This document shows positions 1 to 8,506 of a stretch of DNA of 46,583 nt, in pieces. Every line of letters begins with the position of its first letter. The stretch's first letter is position 1. A program made the position numbers and the translations under genes. The stretch comes from Natrinema gari JCM 14663 (GTDB lineage Archaea > Halobacteriota > Halobacteria > Halobacteriales > Natrialbaceae). The notes beneath the pieces are model-generated. The model saw only the letters and a program-made list of their open reading frames with translations, was not told where the DNA came from and did not search any database. The stretch is from positions 27,296-73,878 of the forward strand of contig NZ_AOIJ01000032.1 of NCBI RefSeq assembly GCF_000337175.1. Direction: 5' to 3'.

Positions 1-22
1 CAGAGATGGGTATAAGAGACAG
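1..22. other. Tn5/Nextera mosaic-end adaptor (artefact)
   Basis: Bases 4-22 match the Tn5 mosaic end AGATGTGTATAAGAGACAG with one mismatch (G for T at base 9), preceded by CAG, the last three bases of older Nextera primer tails. The genome begins at base 23, in the middle of the mutS reading frame. This is library sequence, not a transposon in the organism. Confidence 0.93.
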
Positions 23-2629
23 ATCGTGCTCTTTCAGGTGGGTGACTTCTACGAAACGTTCTGTGGCGCGGCCGAGCGCACCGCGCGCCTCCTCGAGATC
101 GCACTGACCAGCCGCGAGGACAGTACCGGCGAGTATCCGATGGCCGGCATCCCGATCGACAACGCCGAGTCGTACATCGAGGAGTTGCTCGAGGCCGGCT
201 ACCGCGTCGCCGTCGCGGACCAGGTCGAGGAGCCCGGCGAGACCTCCGGCGTGGTCGAGCGCGCGGTCACGCGGGTGATCACGCCCGGGACGCTCACCGA
301 GGACGAACTGCTGGCCGGCGACGACAACAACTTCGTCGCGGCGATCGCACGCGACGACGAACGACTCGGGCTCGCCCTGCTCGACGTGTCGACGGGCGAC
401 TTCTACGCGACGAGCGCGACCGCGGCCGAGTCGGTCGCCGACGAGGTGAGCCGGTTCGATCCCTCGGAGGCCGTCGTCGGCCCCGACGCATCCGCCGACC
501 CCGTTCCCGACGACTGCATGGTGACGCCGTTCGACGCGCGCGCCTTCGATCGCGAGCGGGCCGGGGAAACGCTCGCCGCGTACTTTCGCAACCCCGATGC
601 CCTGCTCGCCGGGGACGCCGAAATACGGGCCTGCGGCGCATTGCTCGCGTACGCCGAGTACGTCCGCGGCGGCGAACACGAGGGCGAACGCGGCGACACC
701 GACGAGGAGCGCGTCACAGCCGTTCTCGAGGGCGACGCGGACCAGCACCTCGAGTACATCACGCAACTCACCCGCTACGACCCTCGCGAGTATCTGCTGT
801 TGGACGCCGTCGCCCTCCGCAGCCTCGAGTTGTTCGAACCGCGGACCGTCCACGGACGGGACGACGCCACGCTCGTCGGCGTCCTCGACGAGACCGCGAG
901 CGCGCTTGGCGGCCGCACGCTCAGGGACTGGCTCCGCCGGCCGCTGCTCGATCCCGTCCGGATCGAGGCGCGCCACGACGCAGTCGCCGAACTGAAATCG
1001 GCCGTCCAGCGGCGGGAACAACTCCACGACCGGCTGCGGGAGGTCTACGACCTCGAGCGGCTGATCGGCCGTATTTCGCGCGAGCGGGCCAACGCGCGTG
1101 ACCTGTGCTCGCTTCGCGAGACGCTCGCGGTCGTGCCCGAGATCAGGGACCTGCTGGCCGACGCCGACTGTGAGCGCCTGCGGGACCTCCATGAGGCCCT
1201 CGACCCCCTCGTGGACGTCCGCGAGTTGATCGCGGACGCCATCGTCGACGAGCCGCCGATCGAGATCACCGAGGGCGGGATCATCGCGACGGGGTACGAC
1301 GACGACCTCGACGATCTCCGCGGGACCGCTCGAGACGGCAAGCAATGGATCGACGACCTCGAGGAGCGCGAGCGCGAGCGGACGGGGATCGACTCGCTGA
1401 AGGTCGGCCACAATTCGGTCCACGGCTACTACATCGAGGTAACGAACCCGAACCTCGAGTCGGTGCCCGACAACTATCAGCGACGGCAGACGCTGAAGAA
1501 CTCCGAGCGATTCGTCACGCCGGAGCTGAAAGACCGTGAGGACGAGATCGTCGGAGCCCAGCAACGCGCCGACGAGCGCGAGTACGAGCTGTTTTGCGAG
1601 ATCCGTCGTGAGGTCGCCGCCGAGGTCGAACGCGTCCAGCGGCTGGCCGACGCGATCGCGACGCTGGATGCGCTCGTCTCGCTTGCGACCGTCGCGGCCC
1701 AGTACGACTACTGTCGGCCCGAGATACTCGAGCACGACGGGCGCGACGGTCTCGTCATCGATATCGACGGCGGCCGCCACCCGGTCGTCGAGCGCACGCA
1801 GGAGTCGTTCGTCCCCAACGACGCGCACCTGACGAGCGACCGCAGGCTGGCCGTGATTACGGGTCCCAACATGTCGGGGAAGTCGACCTACATGCGCCAG
1901 GTCGCCCAGATCGTCCTGCTCGCGCAGGTCGGCAGTTTCGTCCCGGCCCGCGCGGCCAGGCTGACGCCTGTTGAACGGGTTTTCACGCGCGTGGGTGCCA
2001 GCGACGACATCGCGGGCGGGCGCTCGACGTTCATGGTCGAGATGGACGAACTCGCGACCATCCTGCGGGAGGCCGACGAGCGGTCGCTCGTGCTGTTGGA
2101 CGAGGTGGGGCGGGGGACCTCCACCGCCGACGGGATGGCCATCGCGCAGGCGATCACCGAACACCTCTACGACGAGGTCGGCGCGACGACGCTGTTCGCC
2201 ACCCACCACCACCCGTTGACCGAACTCACCGCGGACCTCGCGGCCGCGTTCACGCTGCACTTCGAGGTCGATCAGGACGACGGTGAGGTCGTCTTCCACC
2301 ACGAGATCGCGCCCGGCGCGGCGACGGGCTCCTACGGCGTCGAGGTCGCGACCGCGGCCGGCGTTCCCGACCCCGTCGTCGATCGGTCGCGAGAACTGGT
2401 CGCTGACGCGGCCGAGGCGGACCGCGAGACGGACGCCACCAGCGCTGTCGACTCGAGCGGCGAGCCCGGTTCCGAACCGACGGAGAGCGCGACGGGAGAC
2501 ACGACCGCGGACGGCGGGGACGTGCCGACGGATGTCGCCGCCGAACTCCGGGCGCTCGATCTCGGCCACCTCACCCCCGTCGAAGCGCTCACCGAACTCG
2601 ATCGGCTGAAGCGGTTGCTCGAGGAGTGA
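23..2629 (+). CDS. mutS: DNA mismatch repair protein MutS (5' partial)
   Basis: MutS binds mispaired DNA and uses ATP to start repair. The frame is open from base 23, so the start codon and roughly 20-25 N-terminal residues are missing, cut by the adaptor. Right at the start is the mismatch-reading motif GDFYETF (the Phe-x-Glu that inserts at the mismatch), followed by the connector, lever and clamp regions. The ATPase domain carries Walker [10 protein letters not shown] (about residues 613-621 of the visible protein), Walker B LVLLDE with GRGTST directly after it (about 688-700), and the ATHHH switch motif. An acidic Ser/Thr/Glu linker at about 790-835 precedes a conserved C-terminal helical tail. 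The domain order and size fit MutS1. The gene runs toward the CRISPR block, and only a few bases separate its stop from a relic stop codon of the GNAT gene. Confidence 0.95.
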
Positions 2630-2640: not shown

Positions 2641-2675
2641 CATCGTCGGCGATCGATTTCCGAGACACGATCAGT
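2641..2675. repeat. 35-base direct repeat, copy A (mutS side of insertion)
   Basis: Same orientation as copy B at 7879-7913. The first 23 bases are identical, and 32 of 35 match overall (differences at 2664, 2666 and 2668). It ends exactly where CRISPR repeat 1 begins (2675/2676). On the minus strand it encodes the C-terminal end of the GNAT protein at 7868-8401, so it is a detached copy of that gene's 3' end. Its length falls within the spacer range of the adjacent array. Confidence 0.85.
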
Positions 2676-5600
2676 GCTTCGACCCCACAAGGGTCCGTCT
2701 GAAACCTAGCGTCGAGTTCGACCGGACGCGTCTCCCGGCAGAGCTTCGACCCCACAAGGGTCCGTCTGAAACGGCCAAGCATGATGGGTATAGTGCGGTC
2801 TGTGGCGCTTCGACCCCACAAGGGTCCGTCTGAAACAGTCATGCTCGAGGTAGACGCCGTCGTTCTGTGCGGTGCTTCGACCCCACAAGGGTCCGTCTGA
2901 AACCGGCCCTCGAGGCGATCGCGACCGAGATGCGGTATCAGCTTCGACCCCACAAGGGTCCGTCTGAAACGAGTGAGATGCCGCCGTGGTTAGCCGTCTC
3001 GAGCCAGCTTCGACCCCACAAGGGTCCGTCTGAAACTCAACTCGTCGGGTGAGGCCGTCGAGGCCGGCGCGGCTTCGACCCCACAAGGGTCCGTCTGAAA
3101 CTAGTCATACAATGAGTCAAGCCGAAACCCCGCCACGCCCTCGGCTTCGACCCCACAAGGGTCCGTCTGAAACTCGGTGTCGTACCACCGAACGCGTGTC
3201 TTGAACATGCTTCGACCCCACAAGGGTCCGTCTGAAACTATGGCGAATGAACCGGGTGCAGAGGTGCCTGTTGAGGCTTCGACCCCACAAGGGTCCGTCT
3301 GAAACGAGGAAGACACTGCCCTATAATAGATGCCACAGGCAGCTTCGACCCCACAAGGGTCCGTCTGAAACAGTCAAAATCGTCTCCAGGGATCGTGTGA
3401 TCGGGGGTGCTTCGACCCCACAAGGGTCCGTCTGAAACCTGTCCTCGACGTCCTCGTCGGGGATCGCGATCTCGCTTCGACCCCACAAGGGTCCGTCTGA
3501 AACCGGCCTCACGCAAGAGGAGGACTATGACGAGGCCGGAGCTTCGACCCCACAAGGGTCCGTCTGAAACCGGGGCCGGGTCTCCGTTGATTTGGAGGTT
3601 GGACTGCTTCGACCCCACAAGGGTCCGTCTGAAACCATCCTAGTATCACACTAGAACACATTTAAAGGTGCTTCGACCCCACAAGGGTCCGTCTGAAACG
3701 CTGCGAAGGCACAGATGTTGAGCGGCCTTGTGGGGGCTTCGACCCCACAAGGGTCCGTCTGAAACTAATTATGACCGTTGGCACGGAGCCGTGCAGGTTA
3801 TGCTTCGACCCCACAAGGGTCCGTCTGAAACAACTCGGTCCCACCAGCTACGATAGCGACGAGTGGGCTTCGACCCCACAAGGGTCCGTCTGAAACCGCC
3901 AGCGCCGTTGGTATCCACCGCAGGTACTTCGAGCTTCGACCCCACAAGGGTCCGTCTGAAACTCACTCGTTGTACAGATGAGATTTGCCGACTGGAAGCT
4001 TCGACCCCACAAGGGTCCGTCTGAAACCCAGTCAACGGCGGCTCTGCATGGGCGGTCCAAGAGTTTGCTTCGACCCCACAAGGGTCCGTCTGAAACCCTC
4101 GGAGTACGTGGCGCTGTTGGACACTATCGCAGCTTCGACCCCACAAGGGTCCGTCTGAAACACGATCGCCTCGAGCGGCGCGTGCGGCGGCTCCTTCGAC
4201 CCCACAAGGGTCCGTCTGAAACCGTCTGCTCCGTCTTCGGGACCGTTACCGCTCCCTCGCCTTCGACCCCACAAGGGTCCGTCTGAAACCCGGATTCGAC
4301 GCGCCGGAGCCGCCAGCCGGACAGGCCTTCGACCCCACAAGGGTCCGTCTGAAACCGATCTACCAAGCGGCGCGGGGGATGCTCGAGGCGCGCCTTCGAC
4401 CCCACAAGGGTCCGTCTGAAACCGGAGACGTTCAGCGACCGGCTCGAGGCGGGTGACCCTTCGACCCCACAAGGGTCCGTCTGAAACCCCCAGGACGGCG
4501 ACTCGGGCGTCGTCACGATGCTCCCTTCGACCCCACAAGGGTCCGTCTGAAACTGTTGCTCGGCCCGGTGCCGACGAAGTCCGCGTCGGTCCTTCGACCC
4601 CACAAGGGTCCGTCTGAAACCGCGGGGACGGTCTGCTCCTCGATCTCGTCGTCGCCCCTTCGACCCCACAAGGGTCCGTCTGAAACTCTGGGACGTACTC
4701 GTACAGGCCCCGGTTCACTTTCCCCTTCGACCCCACAAGGGTCCGTCTGAAACGGGGATCGGCGACGGGACACCACTGTCGAAGGCAGACCTTCGACCCC
4801 ACAAGGGTCCGTCTGAAACCGGTTGCACGAGCGCTCGCCGTTCCAAGAGCCCGTCCCTTCGACCCCACAAGGGTCCGTCTGAAACGAGGACTTCGCCGAC
4901 GCCCATCCCGATTCGATCTCCCTTCGACCCCACAAGGGTCCGTCTGAAACCAGACACGGGGGCGATCGTGATGTCGGAGGACGGGGTTCCTTCGACCCCA
5001 CAAGGGTCCGTCTGAAACGCAAACGGGACAGTACGGACGTATATATCGGCCGTGCCTTCGACCCCACAAGGGTCCGTCTGAAACCGCCCGGCGTCCCGAT
5101 CGGGCTCCTCGTCGACGACCCTTCGACCCCACAAGGGTCCGTCTGAAACCGTACCAGACGACATCGACGCCGGTCTGCTCGAGCGGCCTTCGACCCCACA
5201 AGGGTCCGTCTGAAACCGGCGCGGATGGAGACGTCGTCCTCCTCGCCGGGCCTTCGACCCCACAAGGGTCCGTCTGAAACTCGCCGCGCTCGCGAACGAC
5301 GGGGAAGCTGCCGACCCTTCGACCCCACAAGGGTCCGTCTGAAACGCGCCACTTCGTTCAGGTTATCCACGGGACGATCCTTCGACCCCACAAGGGTCCG
5401 TCTGAAACCCGTCGGCAGCGGGTCGCGACCCACTCGCCACGGACCCTTCGACCCCACAAGGGTCCGTCTGAAACCCGAAGACCTCGATCTACTCGGCCCC
5501 GGGCCGAACCTTCGACCCCACAAGGGTCCGTCTGAAACTAACTTTACTAGGGTCGGTACTGTACAGACATCCCCTTCGACCCCACAAGGGTCCGTCTGAA

Positions 5601-6588
5601 ACCCGCCCGTCCGCGGGACGGTCGTGGACATCGTCGAGCCTTCGACCCCACAAGGGTCCGTCTGAAACTGATATAGACCAACACACCCGTGATGCCAGTG
5701 GCGACCTTCGACCCCACAAGGGTCCGTCTGAAACCGAGCCACCAGACGATCGCCGACCGCATCGAGCCCAACCTTCGACCCCACAAGGGTCCGTCTGAAA
5801 CACGGATTTCCTTCGCGGTCGCTCCCTCGCGCTGCACCCTTCGACCCCACAAGGGTCCGTCTGAAACCCGAGATCGTCGATCAGGTGGGCGGCGGCGTCG
5901 GTCCTTCGACCCCACAAGGGTCCGTCTGAAACTCCTTCGCCTTCCGCTCCAGGTCGTCCCAGTATACCCTTCGACCCCACAAGGGTCCGTCTGAAACTGG
6001 GAGTTATCGTCCGGTTCGACGCCGTACGCCAGCCTTCGACCCCACAAGGGTCCGTCTGAAACCCGTCTGTTCGTCGTTCCCCGCCCGAAACGACATCCTT
6101 CGACCCCACAAGGGTCCGTCTGAAACTCGCTCCATTTGATCGAAGCGTTGGTCATACTCACCTTCGACCCCACAAGGGTCCGTCTGAAACGCCATGCGCC
6201 CCGACGAGGTGCGCGAGCAGATGAACCTTCGACCCCACAAGGGTCCGTCTGAAACACTCAGACGGCAAAATCACGTTCGGCAGTTCGGACCGCCTTCGAC
6301 CCCACAAGGGTCCGTCTGAAACACTGTTGGGGAGAGCGCCTCTGGGCGCACGGCCGGCCCCTTCGACCCCACAAGGGTCCGTCTGAAACTCGCGACGCCG
6401 AGTGTGCCCGCGATCCGTCGTGGGCCCTTCGACCCCACAAGGGTCCGTCTGAAACGCGGCTTCCTCGAGAACTGTGCGGTGATCGCCGGCGACCTTCGAC
6501 CCCACAAGGGTCCGTCTGAAACCCAGACTTATCGAGCTCGAGGACAGCCGTCAGTGTTCCTTCGACCCCACAAGGGTCCGTCTGAAAC
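2676..6588 (-). CRISPR. CRISPR array, type I-B-like repeat, 60 repeats and 59 spacers
   Basis: Sixty 30-base repeats are separated by 59 spacers of mostly 34-37 bases (extremes 31 at 4162-4192 and 42 at 3102-3143). On the minus strand the repeat starts GTTTCAGACGGACCC and ends GTCGAAGC or GTCGAAGG. This is close to the Haloferax I-B repeat, which sets transcription as right to left with the leader at the high-coordinate end. Repeats 1-23 (2676-4161) end in C on the crRNA strand; repeats 24-60 (4193-6588) end in G. All other positions look identical in every copy, including the trailer-end repeat, which in many arrays is decayed. No cas gene lies in the window, so processing and interference need Cas proteins from elsewhere. 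Open frames running through this region simply translate the repeat and are not genes. Confidence 0.98.
4162..4192 (-). repeat. Shortest spacer (31 bases), at the junction of the two repeat variants
   Basis: This spacer lies between the last C-ending repeat (4132-4161) and the first G-ending repeat (4193-4222). At 31 bases it is the shortest of the 59. The coincidence of shortest spacer and repeat switch marks this as a possible joining point between two arrays. Confidence 0.8.
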
Positions 6589-6920
6589 CATGACTGATTT
6601 CCGGGCTGCAGCCTCTGTATAGCACGCCCTCAATAAAGTCCTTCCGTCGACCTCCAGTAGTCCGTCTACCCCCGGGGGTCGATGACTAGCTGCCCTCATT
6701 CAGATACCCGGAGCCCAGACCCCCCCCTCGCAGATCGTAGTGATCGGAGTTTCGAGCGTCGACGACGGCAACCTCTCCGAGTCGGAGTATCTGAGCCGGG
6801 TCCAAGAAACGATAGCGCAACCGCGAAGAGGGTGGCTCTTCTGTTCAACGATCACTCCGCCGCCAAAACGTCCCAGTACAGTTATTCACTACGCACCGGA
6901 ATTGCATTACCAACAGAATC
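6589..6920 (-). promoter_or_regulatory. CRISPR leader and promoter region; no gene called
   Basis: This 332-base stretch follows the leader-end repeat. On the minus strand a TATA-like element reads GGACTTTATTG (core at 6631-6637); a start about 25 bases downstream, near 6608, would put transcription just ahead of the first repeat, as expected for pre-crRNA. Further right, the plus strand at 6728-6823 reads in one frame as a protein-like stretch (VVIGVSSVDDGNLSESEYLS) without a clear start or continuation, possibly a gene relic. The leader boundary and promoter are inferred from position and sequence only. Confidence 0.6.
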
Positions 6921-7082
6921 ATGCCTGTAGCCATCGATCCATCTACTATGGACGACGACGATGCCTCCTCAAACGACGGCGATGACGCCCCATTAGGGAC
7001 GTTTCTGTCGCAGGCGTTTGCTGACGTTGACGTCGAGGTTGACTCGGTCGAGGACGTCCGAGAGATCCGCGAAGACGTATGA
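6921..7082 (+). CDS. Putative VapB-type antitoxin (53 aa)
   Basis: A short acidic protein starting MPVAIDPSTMDDDD and ending EDVREIREDV. Its stop overlaps the start of the PIN-domain toxin by four bases (ATGA at 7079-7082), the usual translational coupling of antitoxin and toxin genes. I do not recognise a DNA-binding fold in the sequence; the call rests on size, charge, order and overlap with the toxin. In VapBC systems the antitoxin binds and silences the toxin and represses the operon. Base composition is visibly richer in A/T than the flanking chromosomal genes, as for the toxin gene, which suggests transfer. Confidence 0.65.
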   Translation: MPVAIDPSTMDDDDASSNDGDDAPLGTFLSQAFADVDVEVDSVEDVREIREDV

Positions 7083-7471
7083 AGCTGTTCGTCGATACGA
7101 ATATTCTCGTCGCTGCGACACTCAACGAATCGGAACGAGGCGCTATCGCAACGGAATTCTTGAATTTGGACCGTGAGCTGTCGACAACGATGTTCAACCT
7201 GATGGAATTCCGGACCGTGTTGGCGAAGAAAAAGCGCCTTGATCAGGATCGGGTTGAACGCCTCCTCGAAAAGCTCTGGGATCGAATTACTGTCTACCGG
7301 CCGGACTCCAACGACCTGCTTACATCCTACTCAGTCCAAGAACGAACGTTACTGTATCCAATGGACTGCCTCATTCTCACGACGGCAGAAGAAACAGATG
7401 GGGTCCTGGTCACGTTCGATTCGGAGTTGCTCGAGAACGGTGCGGTCTCACCAAAGACATTTTTGGACTGA
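7079..7471 (+). CDS. vapC: PIN-domain ribonuclease, VapC-type toxin (130 aa)
   Basis: VapC toxins are Mg-dependent ribonucleases that cut tRNA or rRNA when released from their antitoxin. The protein starts MKLFVDTNILVAA with the first PIN aspartate (D6), has an acidic residue in NLMEFRTVL (about residue 43), then the central aspartate in PMDCLIL (about 98) and a further one in LVTFDSELL (about 114). The 130-residue length is normal for a PIN toxin. It overlaps the upstream antitoxin gene by four bases, and the pair lies inside the CRISPR-containing insertion, between the leader and the relic repeats. Codon use includes many A/T-ending codons unlike mutS or the GNAT gene. It could stabilise the inserted segment as an addiction module; that role is inference. 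The RNA target cannot be told from sequence. Confidence 0.87.
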   Translation: MKLFVDTNILVAATLNESERGAIATEFLNLDRELSTTMFNLMEFRTVLAKKKRLDQDRVERLLEKLWDRITVYRPDSNDLLTSYSVQERTLLYPMDCLILTTAEETDGVLVTFDSELLENGAVSPKTFLD

Positions 7472-7672
7472 CTACTCGTCGATCGCGACATCCTCAGCAC
7501 ATTCGGGATTGACTTCTTCGACGGGCTCGCATCCGGTCTCGCGCTACTGACAGCCGTTCCATTCAACCACAACCCACACCCAGTCGCCATCGGGCTGCGG
7601 CCGGAACGAGATCTTCCCCGGTGGGCCGCCGGCTGGCCGATACTGGATGTCGATCGCAATGTCAGTTATCAC
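7472..7672 (-). pseudogene. Small haloarchaeal-type protein gene broken by an in-frame TAG
   Basis: From GTG at 7672 the minus strand encodes about 42 residues (VITDIAIDIQYRPAGG onward, with DGDWVWVVVEWNGCQ), hits TAG at 7544-7546, then continues in the same frame with protein-like sequence (RETGCEPVEEVNPECA) to a second stop at 7472-7474. The even composition on both sides suggests one 66-codon gene in which a Trp TGG became TAG. The GTG start overlaps the end of the next minus-strand frame (7662-7784) by 11 bases. I do not recognise the family. Its end abuts the stop of vapC directly. A short but functional 42-residue product is possible. Confidence 0.5.
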
Positions 7673-7784
7673 TCTCCACCAGATGATCGGCGATCGCCCG
7701 GCAGTGCTCGGCGACCTTCTCCTCGGTCAGCGGCCGCTCGAACGTGAGCGTCATCGCAAATCGGTCACCAGCGGCCGCCATCAT
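7662..7784 (-). pseudogene. Fragment of an unknown protein, 5' end lost into a relic CRISPR repeat
   Basis: The frame reads MMAAAGDRFAMTLTFERP and onward to ADHLVESDN, about 40 residues. Upstream the frame stays open through two decayed CRISPR repeats and the spacer between them (to 7871), so any native start has been replaced by repeat sequence. The segment LTFERPLTEEKVAEHCRA looks like genuine amphipathic protein. It overlaps the broken gene downstream (7472-7672) by 11 bases, so the two were probably one coupled pair. Family unknown. It may start at the ATG at 7784 or be a truncated remnant. Confidence 0.4.
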
Positions 7785-7787
7785 GCG

Positions 7788-7812
7788 GAACCCACAAGGG
7801 CTCGTCTGAAAC
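7788..7812 (-). CRISPR. Relic CRISPR repeat 1 (left end eroded)
   Basis: The 25 bases match the last 25 of the main-array repeat in plus orientation except for three positions; the five bases at the left end do not match. A 36-base spacer-like stretch (7813-7848) separates it from the second relic repeat, a normal spacing for this array. Confidence 0.8.
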
Positions 7813-7848
7813 CTGGGCTCGTACGGACTTCTAGCGCGAACGGTTCCT

Positions 7849-7878
7849 GCTTCAACCCCACAAGGGTTCATCTGAAAC
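7849..7878 (-). CRISPR. Relic CRISPR repeat 2, supplies the GNAT stop codon
   Basis: A full 30-base repeat with three differences from the main array. On the minus strand it reads GTTTCAGATGAACCC and ends GGTTGAAGC. The AACCC and GGTTGAAGC parts are closer to the Haloferax-type repeat than to the main array here. The C-to-T change in AGATGA creates the TGA on which the GNAT frame now stops (7868-7870). It abuts direct-repeat copy B at 7878/7879. Confidence 0.88.
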
Positions 7879-8401
7879 CATCGTCGGCGATCGATTTCCG
7901 ATAAAAGATCAGTTCGAAGGGATCATCGAATGCTTCGACCCACTCGCGACACACCGCTTCGAAGCCTTCCGTGTCGTACAGTCCGCGGGCCGCGGTTTGG
8001 GTCGGTCTCGTATCGAGGACGAACTGTTCGACCCCTCGCGACCGGGCACGTTCCTCGAGTTCCCGGTAGAGCTGCCGTCCGTAGCCCCGCCGTTGTGCGT
8101 CGGGCGCGACGCGCAGTCGCGTCACCTCGGCCGCCGCGTCGCCGAGGTCGGAAACGACCGTCGCGATGTGTGCCGAGTCGTCGACCGGTCGAAACGCGCC
8201 CATCGCGACGATCCGACCAGCTCGTTCGCCGACCAGAAACTCGCCGCCGGGCTCGAGAAACGTCTCCGTGATCGACTCGAGGTCGTCGTCCGGAACGCCC
8301 TCGACGTAGGCGTTGGCGTCCCGCATGGCTGTTTCGTGGAGGTCTCTAACCCTGGGGCCGTCGTCAGGTCGGTACCGACGGATCGAGAGTTCGTTTCCCA
8401 T
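7868..8401 (-). CDS. GNAT family N-acetyltransferase with a CRISPR-derived C-terminus
   Basis: This family transfers acetyl from acetyl-CoA to an amine; the substrate cannot be told here. The protein (177 aa from ATG at 8401; a GTG two codons upstream at 8407 is an alternative) shows the acetyl-CoA binding motif A, VTRLRVAPDAQRRGYGRQLY (Arg-x-x-Gly-x-Gly/Ala type), at about residues 92-111, then the motif B region with GLYDTEGFE, and the usual last strand FELIFY. The final residues after DDG are Phe-Arg, read from a decayed CRISPR repeat, and the stop is inside that repeat. A copy of the gene's 3' end with a different, probably original, stop lies next to mutS at 2636-2675. The protein core looks intact, so it is probably still functional. 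Confidence 0.9.
   Translation of the reverse strand: MGNELSIRRYRPDDGPRVRDLHETAMRDANAYVEGVPDDDLESITETFLEPGGEFLVGERAGRIVAMGAFRPVDDSAHIATVVSDLGDAAAEVTRLRVAPDAQRRGYGRQLYRELEERARSRGVEQFVLDTRPTQTAARGLYDTEGFEAVCREWVEAFDDPFELIFYRKSIADDGFR
7879..7913. repeat. 35-base direct repeat, copy B (inside the GNAT gene)
   Basis: This is the partner of 2641-2675 (32 of 35 identical, same orientation). It is coding sequence for the GNAT C-terminus (ELIFYRKSIADDG on the minus strand) and continues without a break into the rest of the gene, so this copy is in its native context on its right side. On its left it meets relic repeat 2 exactly. Recombination between copies A and B would remove the whole 5.2 kb block and restore the convergent mutS/GNAT ends. 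Confidence 0.85.
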
Positions 8402-8506
8402 GGGCACCGATCAGTCGCTCCGCTTGAAACGTCCTCGCATCGATGGAGTCGGTCAGGTTGCGAGGACCGGCACAACGCACAACCACCTCGGCGAGAAGCT
8501 AGTAGT

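Follow-up and report, generated by a model that had tools for sequence, protein, structure and literature searches.

A spacer-length duplication encloses an orphan CRISPR array between mutS and a GNAT gene of Natrinema gari and is consistent with relocation of the array by spacer-target recombination

The window analyzed here, a stretch of 46,583 nucleotides (nt) from Natrinema gari JCM 14663 (contig NZ_AOIJ01000032.1, positions 27,296 to 73,878), harbors between its mutS and GNAT genes a 5.2-kb block which carries an array of clustered regularly interspaced short palindromic repeats (CRISPR) and which is enclosed, at the 3′ end of the GNAT gene, by two 35-base copies (A and B) of the same sequence. 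The features at the two ends of this block are listed below in window coordinates, where R denotes a repeat of the array, and R′ and R″ denote two further repeats at the right end of the block.

26..2629, plus strand: mutS, the left neighbor of the insertion; 3′ end intact, 5′ end lost to a scaffold gap (from the open reading frame, ORF, and empty-site alignments)
2641..2675, minus strand: copy A of the GNAT 3′ end, read as a chromosomal left part and a spacer-derived right part; TAA at 2636-2638
2676..6588, minus strand: orphan type I-B CRISPR array with 60 repeats of 30 nt and 59 spacers of 31 to 42 nt; leftward reading, trailer end at 2676
6589..6690, minus strand: leader, with its conserved part at about 6633-6685, common to the arrays on contigs C30 and C52 of the same genome and to other genomes of the genus
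7849..7878, minus strand: R′, a full-length repeat of an older, genus-wide type (RF01337, 49.1 bits, 30/30; 1 mismatch to the repeat of genome G003)
7879..7913, minus strand: copy B, its left part read as spacer-derived, followed by the native GNAT 3′ end
7868..8407, minus strand: GNAT gene, intact; its ORF ends SIADDGFR, and its ortholog in G028 is 87% identical

Copies A and B are identical at 32 of 35 bases, or at 92% across 36 bases if the C common to positions 2640 and 7878 is counted; chance alone would give 2.5e-8 pairs of at least 32/35 in the 7 kb around them. The 24 leading bases (2640-2663) are identical, and all three mismatches fall within 2664-2668. Read in the GNAT frame, copy A gives LIVSRKSIADDG and then TAA, which is 6 bases from the mutS stop. 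The native GNAT allele, which reads CATCGTCGGCGATCGATTTCCGATAGAAGATCAGT in three relatives (G028, G009, and G001), differs from copy B by one base and from copy A by three, and the genome holds a single instance of each version of the 35-mer. The GNAT gene has gained two residues (FR) and a stop, both supplied by R′, and neither neighbor gene has been harmed by the insertion.

Among the 12 same-genus genomes which have the GNAT ortholog beside mutS, all carry the two genes in convergent, adjacent, and array-free form, with no repeat at the site in any of them. The array block is an insertion relative to these empty sites, and fusing the window's own flanks restores the junction of the relatives, save for a 1-base indel between the genes. 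A preceding interpretation made without database searches, referred to here as the sequence-only reading, had expected such an empty site, with mutS and GNAT convergent and their stops six bases apart. The 12 junctions bear out that order and the spacing is as it had stated, while the contrary case which it named, relatives all bearing the array, was not encountered. Its coordinates and 32/35 identity for the copies likewise held, as did its account of copy A as adjoining mutS and running in the GNAT frame into a TAA. With regard to the flanking genes themselves, window positions 1-22 resemble a Nextera adapter, lie directly after a single N of contig C32, and cut mutS short, which is a scaffold-gap artifact. 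Two relatives have a GNAT ortholog which matches in two pieces and is apparently frameshifted (G001:C37:96134-96633 and G003:C1:846982-847445).

The edges of the duplication were located independently by the Rfam covariance model CRISPR-DR24 (RF01337), whose complete 30/30 matches at 2676-2705 and 7849-7878 confirm the flush repeat edges described previously: one repeat begins one base past copy A, and another ends one base ahead of copy B. Both copies of the duplicated target directly abut a repeat and keep the register of the array, as would be required of a recombination product. Exchange of the ends within the 24 identical bases rebuilds the order R″-36 nt-R′-35 nt-R-37 nt-R, with a start-to-start spacing of 65 (61-72 in the window array) and a reconstructed spacer of 35 nt, a length shared by 15 of the 60 other spacers. 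As the mismatches between the copies all lie to the right of the 24-base identical tract, their placement is exactly that predicted by a single crossover within it. No comparable flush duplication was found in about a dozen other same-genus arrays screened, where apparent matches were dismissed as paired leaders (G004), runs of N (G022), or a short leader-side repeat (G001).

The 60 repeats of the array are identical apart from the first base and belong to the CRISPR-DR24 family, and its 59 spacers are all unique. At its right end, the array carries sequence akin to the leaders of the genome's two other arrays, and the leader is, therefore, placed on the right and the oldest end on the left, at 2676; the closest leader overall is that of G003. 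A protospacer-adjacent motif (PAM) of TTC is found beside good targets of five spacers (2904, 4554, 5409, 5539, and 6456). One spacer with a TTC-flanked target is an exact match to the Natrinema virus SNJ2, and several spacers of the array have TTC-flanked targets in same-genus genomes. A complete cas operon, cas6-8b-7-5-3-4-1-2, is located on contig C30 and no cas genes lie beside the window array, which could still serve in trans with this type I-B operon. The assignment to type I-B thus agrees with the repeat family, the shared leader, the consistent PAM, and the matching cas genes of the genome.

The array also presents certain internal peculiarities. The 37-nt spacer at 5150-5186 recurs identically in the cas-adjacent C30 array of the same genome (L060 about 14039, minus). 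Within window positions 4132-4222, the first base of the repeat, which is G in the 23 leader-distal copies, becomes C in the 37 leader-proximal ones, the switch being located at the shortest spacer (31 nt, 4162-4192). Spacer G+C content differs between the array halves (59% versus 66%; permutation p 0.001), and the window array may itself represent a fusion of two parts. Finally, the spacer at 5603-5638 aligns over 26 of its 36 bases, at 96%, with the gene for ribosomal protein L2 in many genomes of the genus, which is possibly due to chance or to a distant chromosomal origin.

To the right of the leader, the block is composed of the following additional features:

6734..7788, strand not assigned: provirus- or plasmid-like block with a lipoprotein C-terminal fragment, a PIN toxin-antitoxin pair, and a gene remnant
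6921..7082, plus strand: putative antitoxin of 53 amino acids, with a 4-base overlap with the toxin; named from its position only
7079..7471, plus strand: PIN-domain toxin of 130 amino acids (Pfam PF01850, E 9.6e-17)
7472..7788, minus strand: broken small gene, whose homology to relatives extends to 7781-7789
7788..7789, strand not assigned: non-homologous internal join, where mobile-element-like DNA is fused into a truncated repeat whose first bases are gone
7789..7812, minus strand: R″, a truncated repeat of which 24 nt remain; 21/22 to the G003 and G004 repeats
7813..7848, minus strand: spacer of 36 nt between R″ and R′; 34/36 to contig C31 of the same genome, with ATC in the TTC PAM position

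The repeat adjoining copy B, which the sequence-only reading had taken for a relic, proved to be a full repeat (7849-7878) which outscores those of the array; only the next one (7789-7812) is truncated. R′ and R″ share the orientation of the array and belong to the older repeat type found in G003, G004, and G022. Because of this orientation, the G003-type repeat, and the leader being closest to that of G003, both are what would be expected of the oldest stretch of this array. The adjacent segment 6734-7788 has homologs of 85% identity in G009 and 76% in G013, with shorter matches in G008, G011, and others; the loci of these four genomes track the window to approximately 7788 and diverge beyond, and no array was present near any fetched locus homologous to the segment. 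The 53-amino-acid putative antitoxin returned no match in Pfam or NCBIfam. The sequence matched by the spacer between R″ and R′ (C31:45958-45993) lies in a small ORF, and the surrounding region of the genome is provirus- or plasmid-like.

We consider it probable that a GNAT-matching spacer recombined homologously with the chromosomal GNAT end and that this event, together with one illegitimate join, relocated the array. Close to the trailer, its old end, the array would have borne a 35-nt spacer matching the GNAT 3′ end of the same or a related species, the donor order being R′ - CATCGTCGGCGATCGATTTCCGAGACACGATCAGT - R. Homologous recombination between this spacer and the chromosomal GNAT end, inside the 24 identical bases, would then have set the array and its neighbors between mutS and GNAT and divided the spacer between the two copies, such that copy A would hold the version of the spacer and copy B that of the chromosome. 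The sole other new join, at 7788/7789, cuts through a repeat without homology. Such a structure may have arisen from a circle closed at 7788/7789 and integrated by crossover at the spacer, from a larger plasmid whose integration was followed by a deletion at 7788/7789, or from a broken GNAT end, both ends of which would have copied outward from the spacer in a linear donor before being joined; one homologous join (the 35-mer) and one illegitimate join fit the three routes alike. We infer the former role of the 35-mer as a spacer, its use in recombination, and the nature of the source, including its circularity. The single spacer-target crossover advanced by the sequence-only reading is supported by the leader at the right, the orientation and older type of R′ and R″, the 35-nt length, and the one-sided mismatches, whereas the donor on another molecule which it invoked was not found and has still to be supposed.

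Several observations weigh against this proposal. The repeat type switches abruptly at the 35-mer, with three differences between R′ and its neighbor; the copy A variant (GTG TCT codons) appears in no native GNAT allele seen, possibly reflecting mutation after the insertion; and a tract of 24 identical bases is short for recombination. No replication gene is evident in the block, and a 5.2-kb circle would not maintain itself. Furthermore, the canonical PAM position at the chromosomal match reads CGA and not TTC, although a TTC (GAA on the plus strand) is located 2 nt past the edge of the match (window 7914-7918), which would fit slipped spacer acquisition. A canonical PAM would be needed for acquisition from this allele but not for recombination. 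Lastly, no array, plasmid, or genome holding the 35-mer as a spacer was found in family and order genomes or in genome and viral contigs. With up to 3 mismatches, the 35-mer was matched only by native GNAT ends in 125 family and 392 order genomes, and 21 to 23 of its bases revealed no donor in species-representative genome contigs and viral contigs, absence among species representatives being weak evidence. Its neighboring spacer retrieved no donor from genome or viral contigs, and the array repeat had no exact match in viral contigs. The recurrence of the 35-mer as a spacer in other arrays or plasmids, which had been suggested as a check, was thus not observed in these collections; the plasmid collection, searched with the remaining spacers and with the block outside the array but not with the 35-mer itself, yielded no donor, its matches being limited to repeats, the PIN region (66%), the gene remnant (71%), and a single weak target of a spacer. 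The flanks of the homologous block in G009 lead to contigs C86 and C41 of the window genome, without pointing to a donor locus there.

A different origin would be the insertion of the 5.2-kb element by an integrase, a transposase, or a Cas1-Cas2-like enzyme, the 35 bases being a target-site duplication or an attachment site. Direct repeats on either side of an insertion at a gene 3′ end would suit such an enzyme, gene 3′ ends being favored integrase sites, and the CRISPR repeats at both ends of the block look like imperfect inverted ends. However, no transposase or integrase was apparent among the block ORFs on by-eye inspection (family searches covered only the PIN toxin, the antitoxin, and part of the gene remnant), and an enzyme-inserted element does not predict that reading both ends through the 35-mer should give a normal array. 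To our knowledge, a duplication of 35 bases also far exceeds that of familiar transposons. Cas1-Cas2, which the sequence-only reading had offered as an alternative to a crossover, duplicates a repeat-length (30-nt) target around one inserted spacer and not 35 bases around 5.2 kb, and is disfavored for that reason. Enzymatic insertion is, overall, regarded as unlikely.

The same junctions would be produced exactly by a crossing in the assembly graph, had the assembler switched paths at the 24 identical bases between an intact mutS-GNAT locus and an array with a 35-nt spacer on another molecule, and the draft nature of the genome (88 contigs), its single-N gaps, and the adapter remnant at the left edge of the window lend this some plausibility. 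Yet 2641-7913 is free of N, both versions of the 35-mer are single copy in the genome, the word sizes of usual final assemblies exceed the 24 bases of this repeat, and the array would have to reside on a separate 5.2-kb circle, for which no replication genes are evident; we therefore judge such an artifact unlikely. Least probable of all is that R′ and R″ stem from a separate array which once resided beside GNAT and that the long array came later. While their repeat type, unlike that of the long array, is in keeping with this, the site is free of repeats in all 12 relatives, the spacer-length duplication is left unexplained, and the leader of the long array resembles that of the G003 array, which itself has the R′-type repeat.

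Within the proposed spacer-target recombination, the route through a broken chromosome end warrants separate consideration. A break at the GNAT end, crRNA (CRISPR RNA)-guided or other, would have been followed by invasion of the spacer by both ends, outward copying, and joining at 7788/7789, which accounts for both joins, homologous and non-homologous, starting from a linear donor and with no need for a circle. In Haloferax, homologous recombination repairs CRISPR cuts, with microhomology joining as the alternative under enhanced self-targeting (PMC7521656), and CRISPR targeting raises recombination (PMC12814878), both of which count in favor of this route. The mismatches between the copies correspond, counted from sequence, to crRNA positions 8, 10, and 12, and given these three mismatches and the lack of TTC at the PAM position, crRNA targeting of the present GNAT allele is not expected. 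This explains why the locus is tolerated, as had been surmised from the CGA now set against the TTC motif of the five spacers, and makes a guided cut of this allele less likely. Capture at a break is, accordingly, a possible but rather doubtful variant. That the GNAT end was cut specifically under crRNA guidance and repaired with the array as template, so that targeting moved its own memory into the chromosome, is improbable; if true, such spacers would constitute general landing addresses for arrays in mating haloarchaea.

In neo-CRISPR formation, off-target Cas1-Cas2 integration gives one spacer between duplicated repeat-length targets. A CRISPR structure at a new chromosomal site is common to that process and to the present locus, but neo-CRISPR formation does not transport a 60-repeat array and its leader. 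Spacer-target recombination itself is known in staphylococcal phages (Varble et al. 2019, as related in PMC8616872, PMC10434264, and PMC9071438), where, according to these accounts, recombination of a spacer with its matching target similarly links array-bearing DNA to another molecule; there, the target lies in the invading phage and the outcome is transfer, whereas here the target is an archaeal chromosomal gene and the outcome is a fixed new location of the array. Orphan arrays have been suggested to aid plasmid integration via recombination between plasmid and host CRISPR (PMC9071438), a process which also employs a cas-less array as homology for integration, albeit array against array and not, as here, spacer against gene. 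The acquisition of spacers during inter-species mating of haloarchaea (Turgeman-Grott et al. 2019, as described in PMC11434293) could account for a spacer matching the chromosomal GNAT gene; that work, as described there, concerns immunity, gene flow, and speciation and not array movement. The sequence-only reading knew of no CRISPR relocation by spacer-target recombination. This stands insofar as no report was found in the open-access literature of an array which had moved into a chromosome by way of a spacer with a match in a chromosomal gene, but spacer-target recombination as such had already been described in the staphylococcal phages.

Arrays without cas genes are common and their spread is poorly known, and the locus described here provides a base-level footprint of one route, in which a spacer matching a chromosomal gene supplies the homology for movement of the array and the neighboring genes are left unharmed. 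A duplication of spacer length which abuts two repeats, in combination with an empty site in relatives, forms a signature searchable in any genome set. A stored 35-base memory can, on this reading, also serve as an address for moving the array which holds it.

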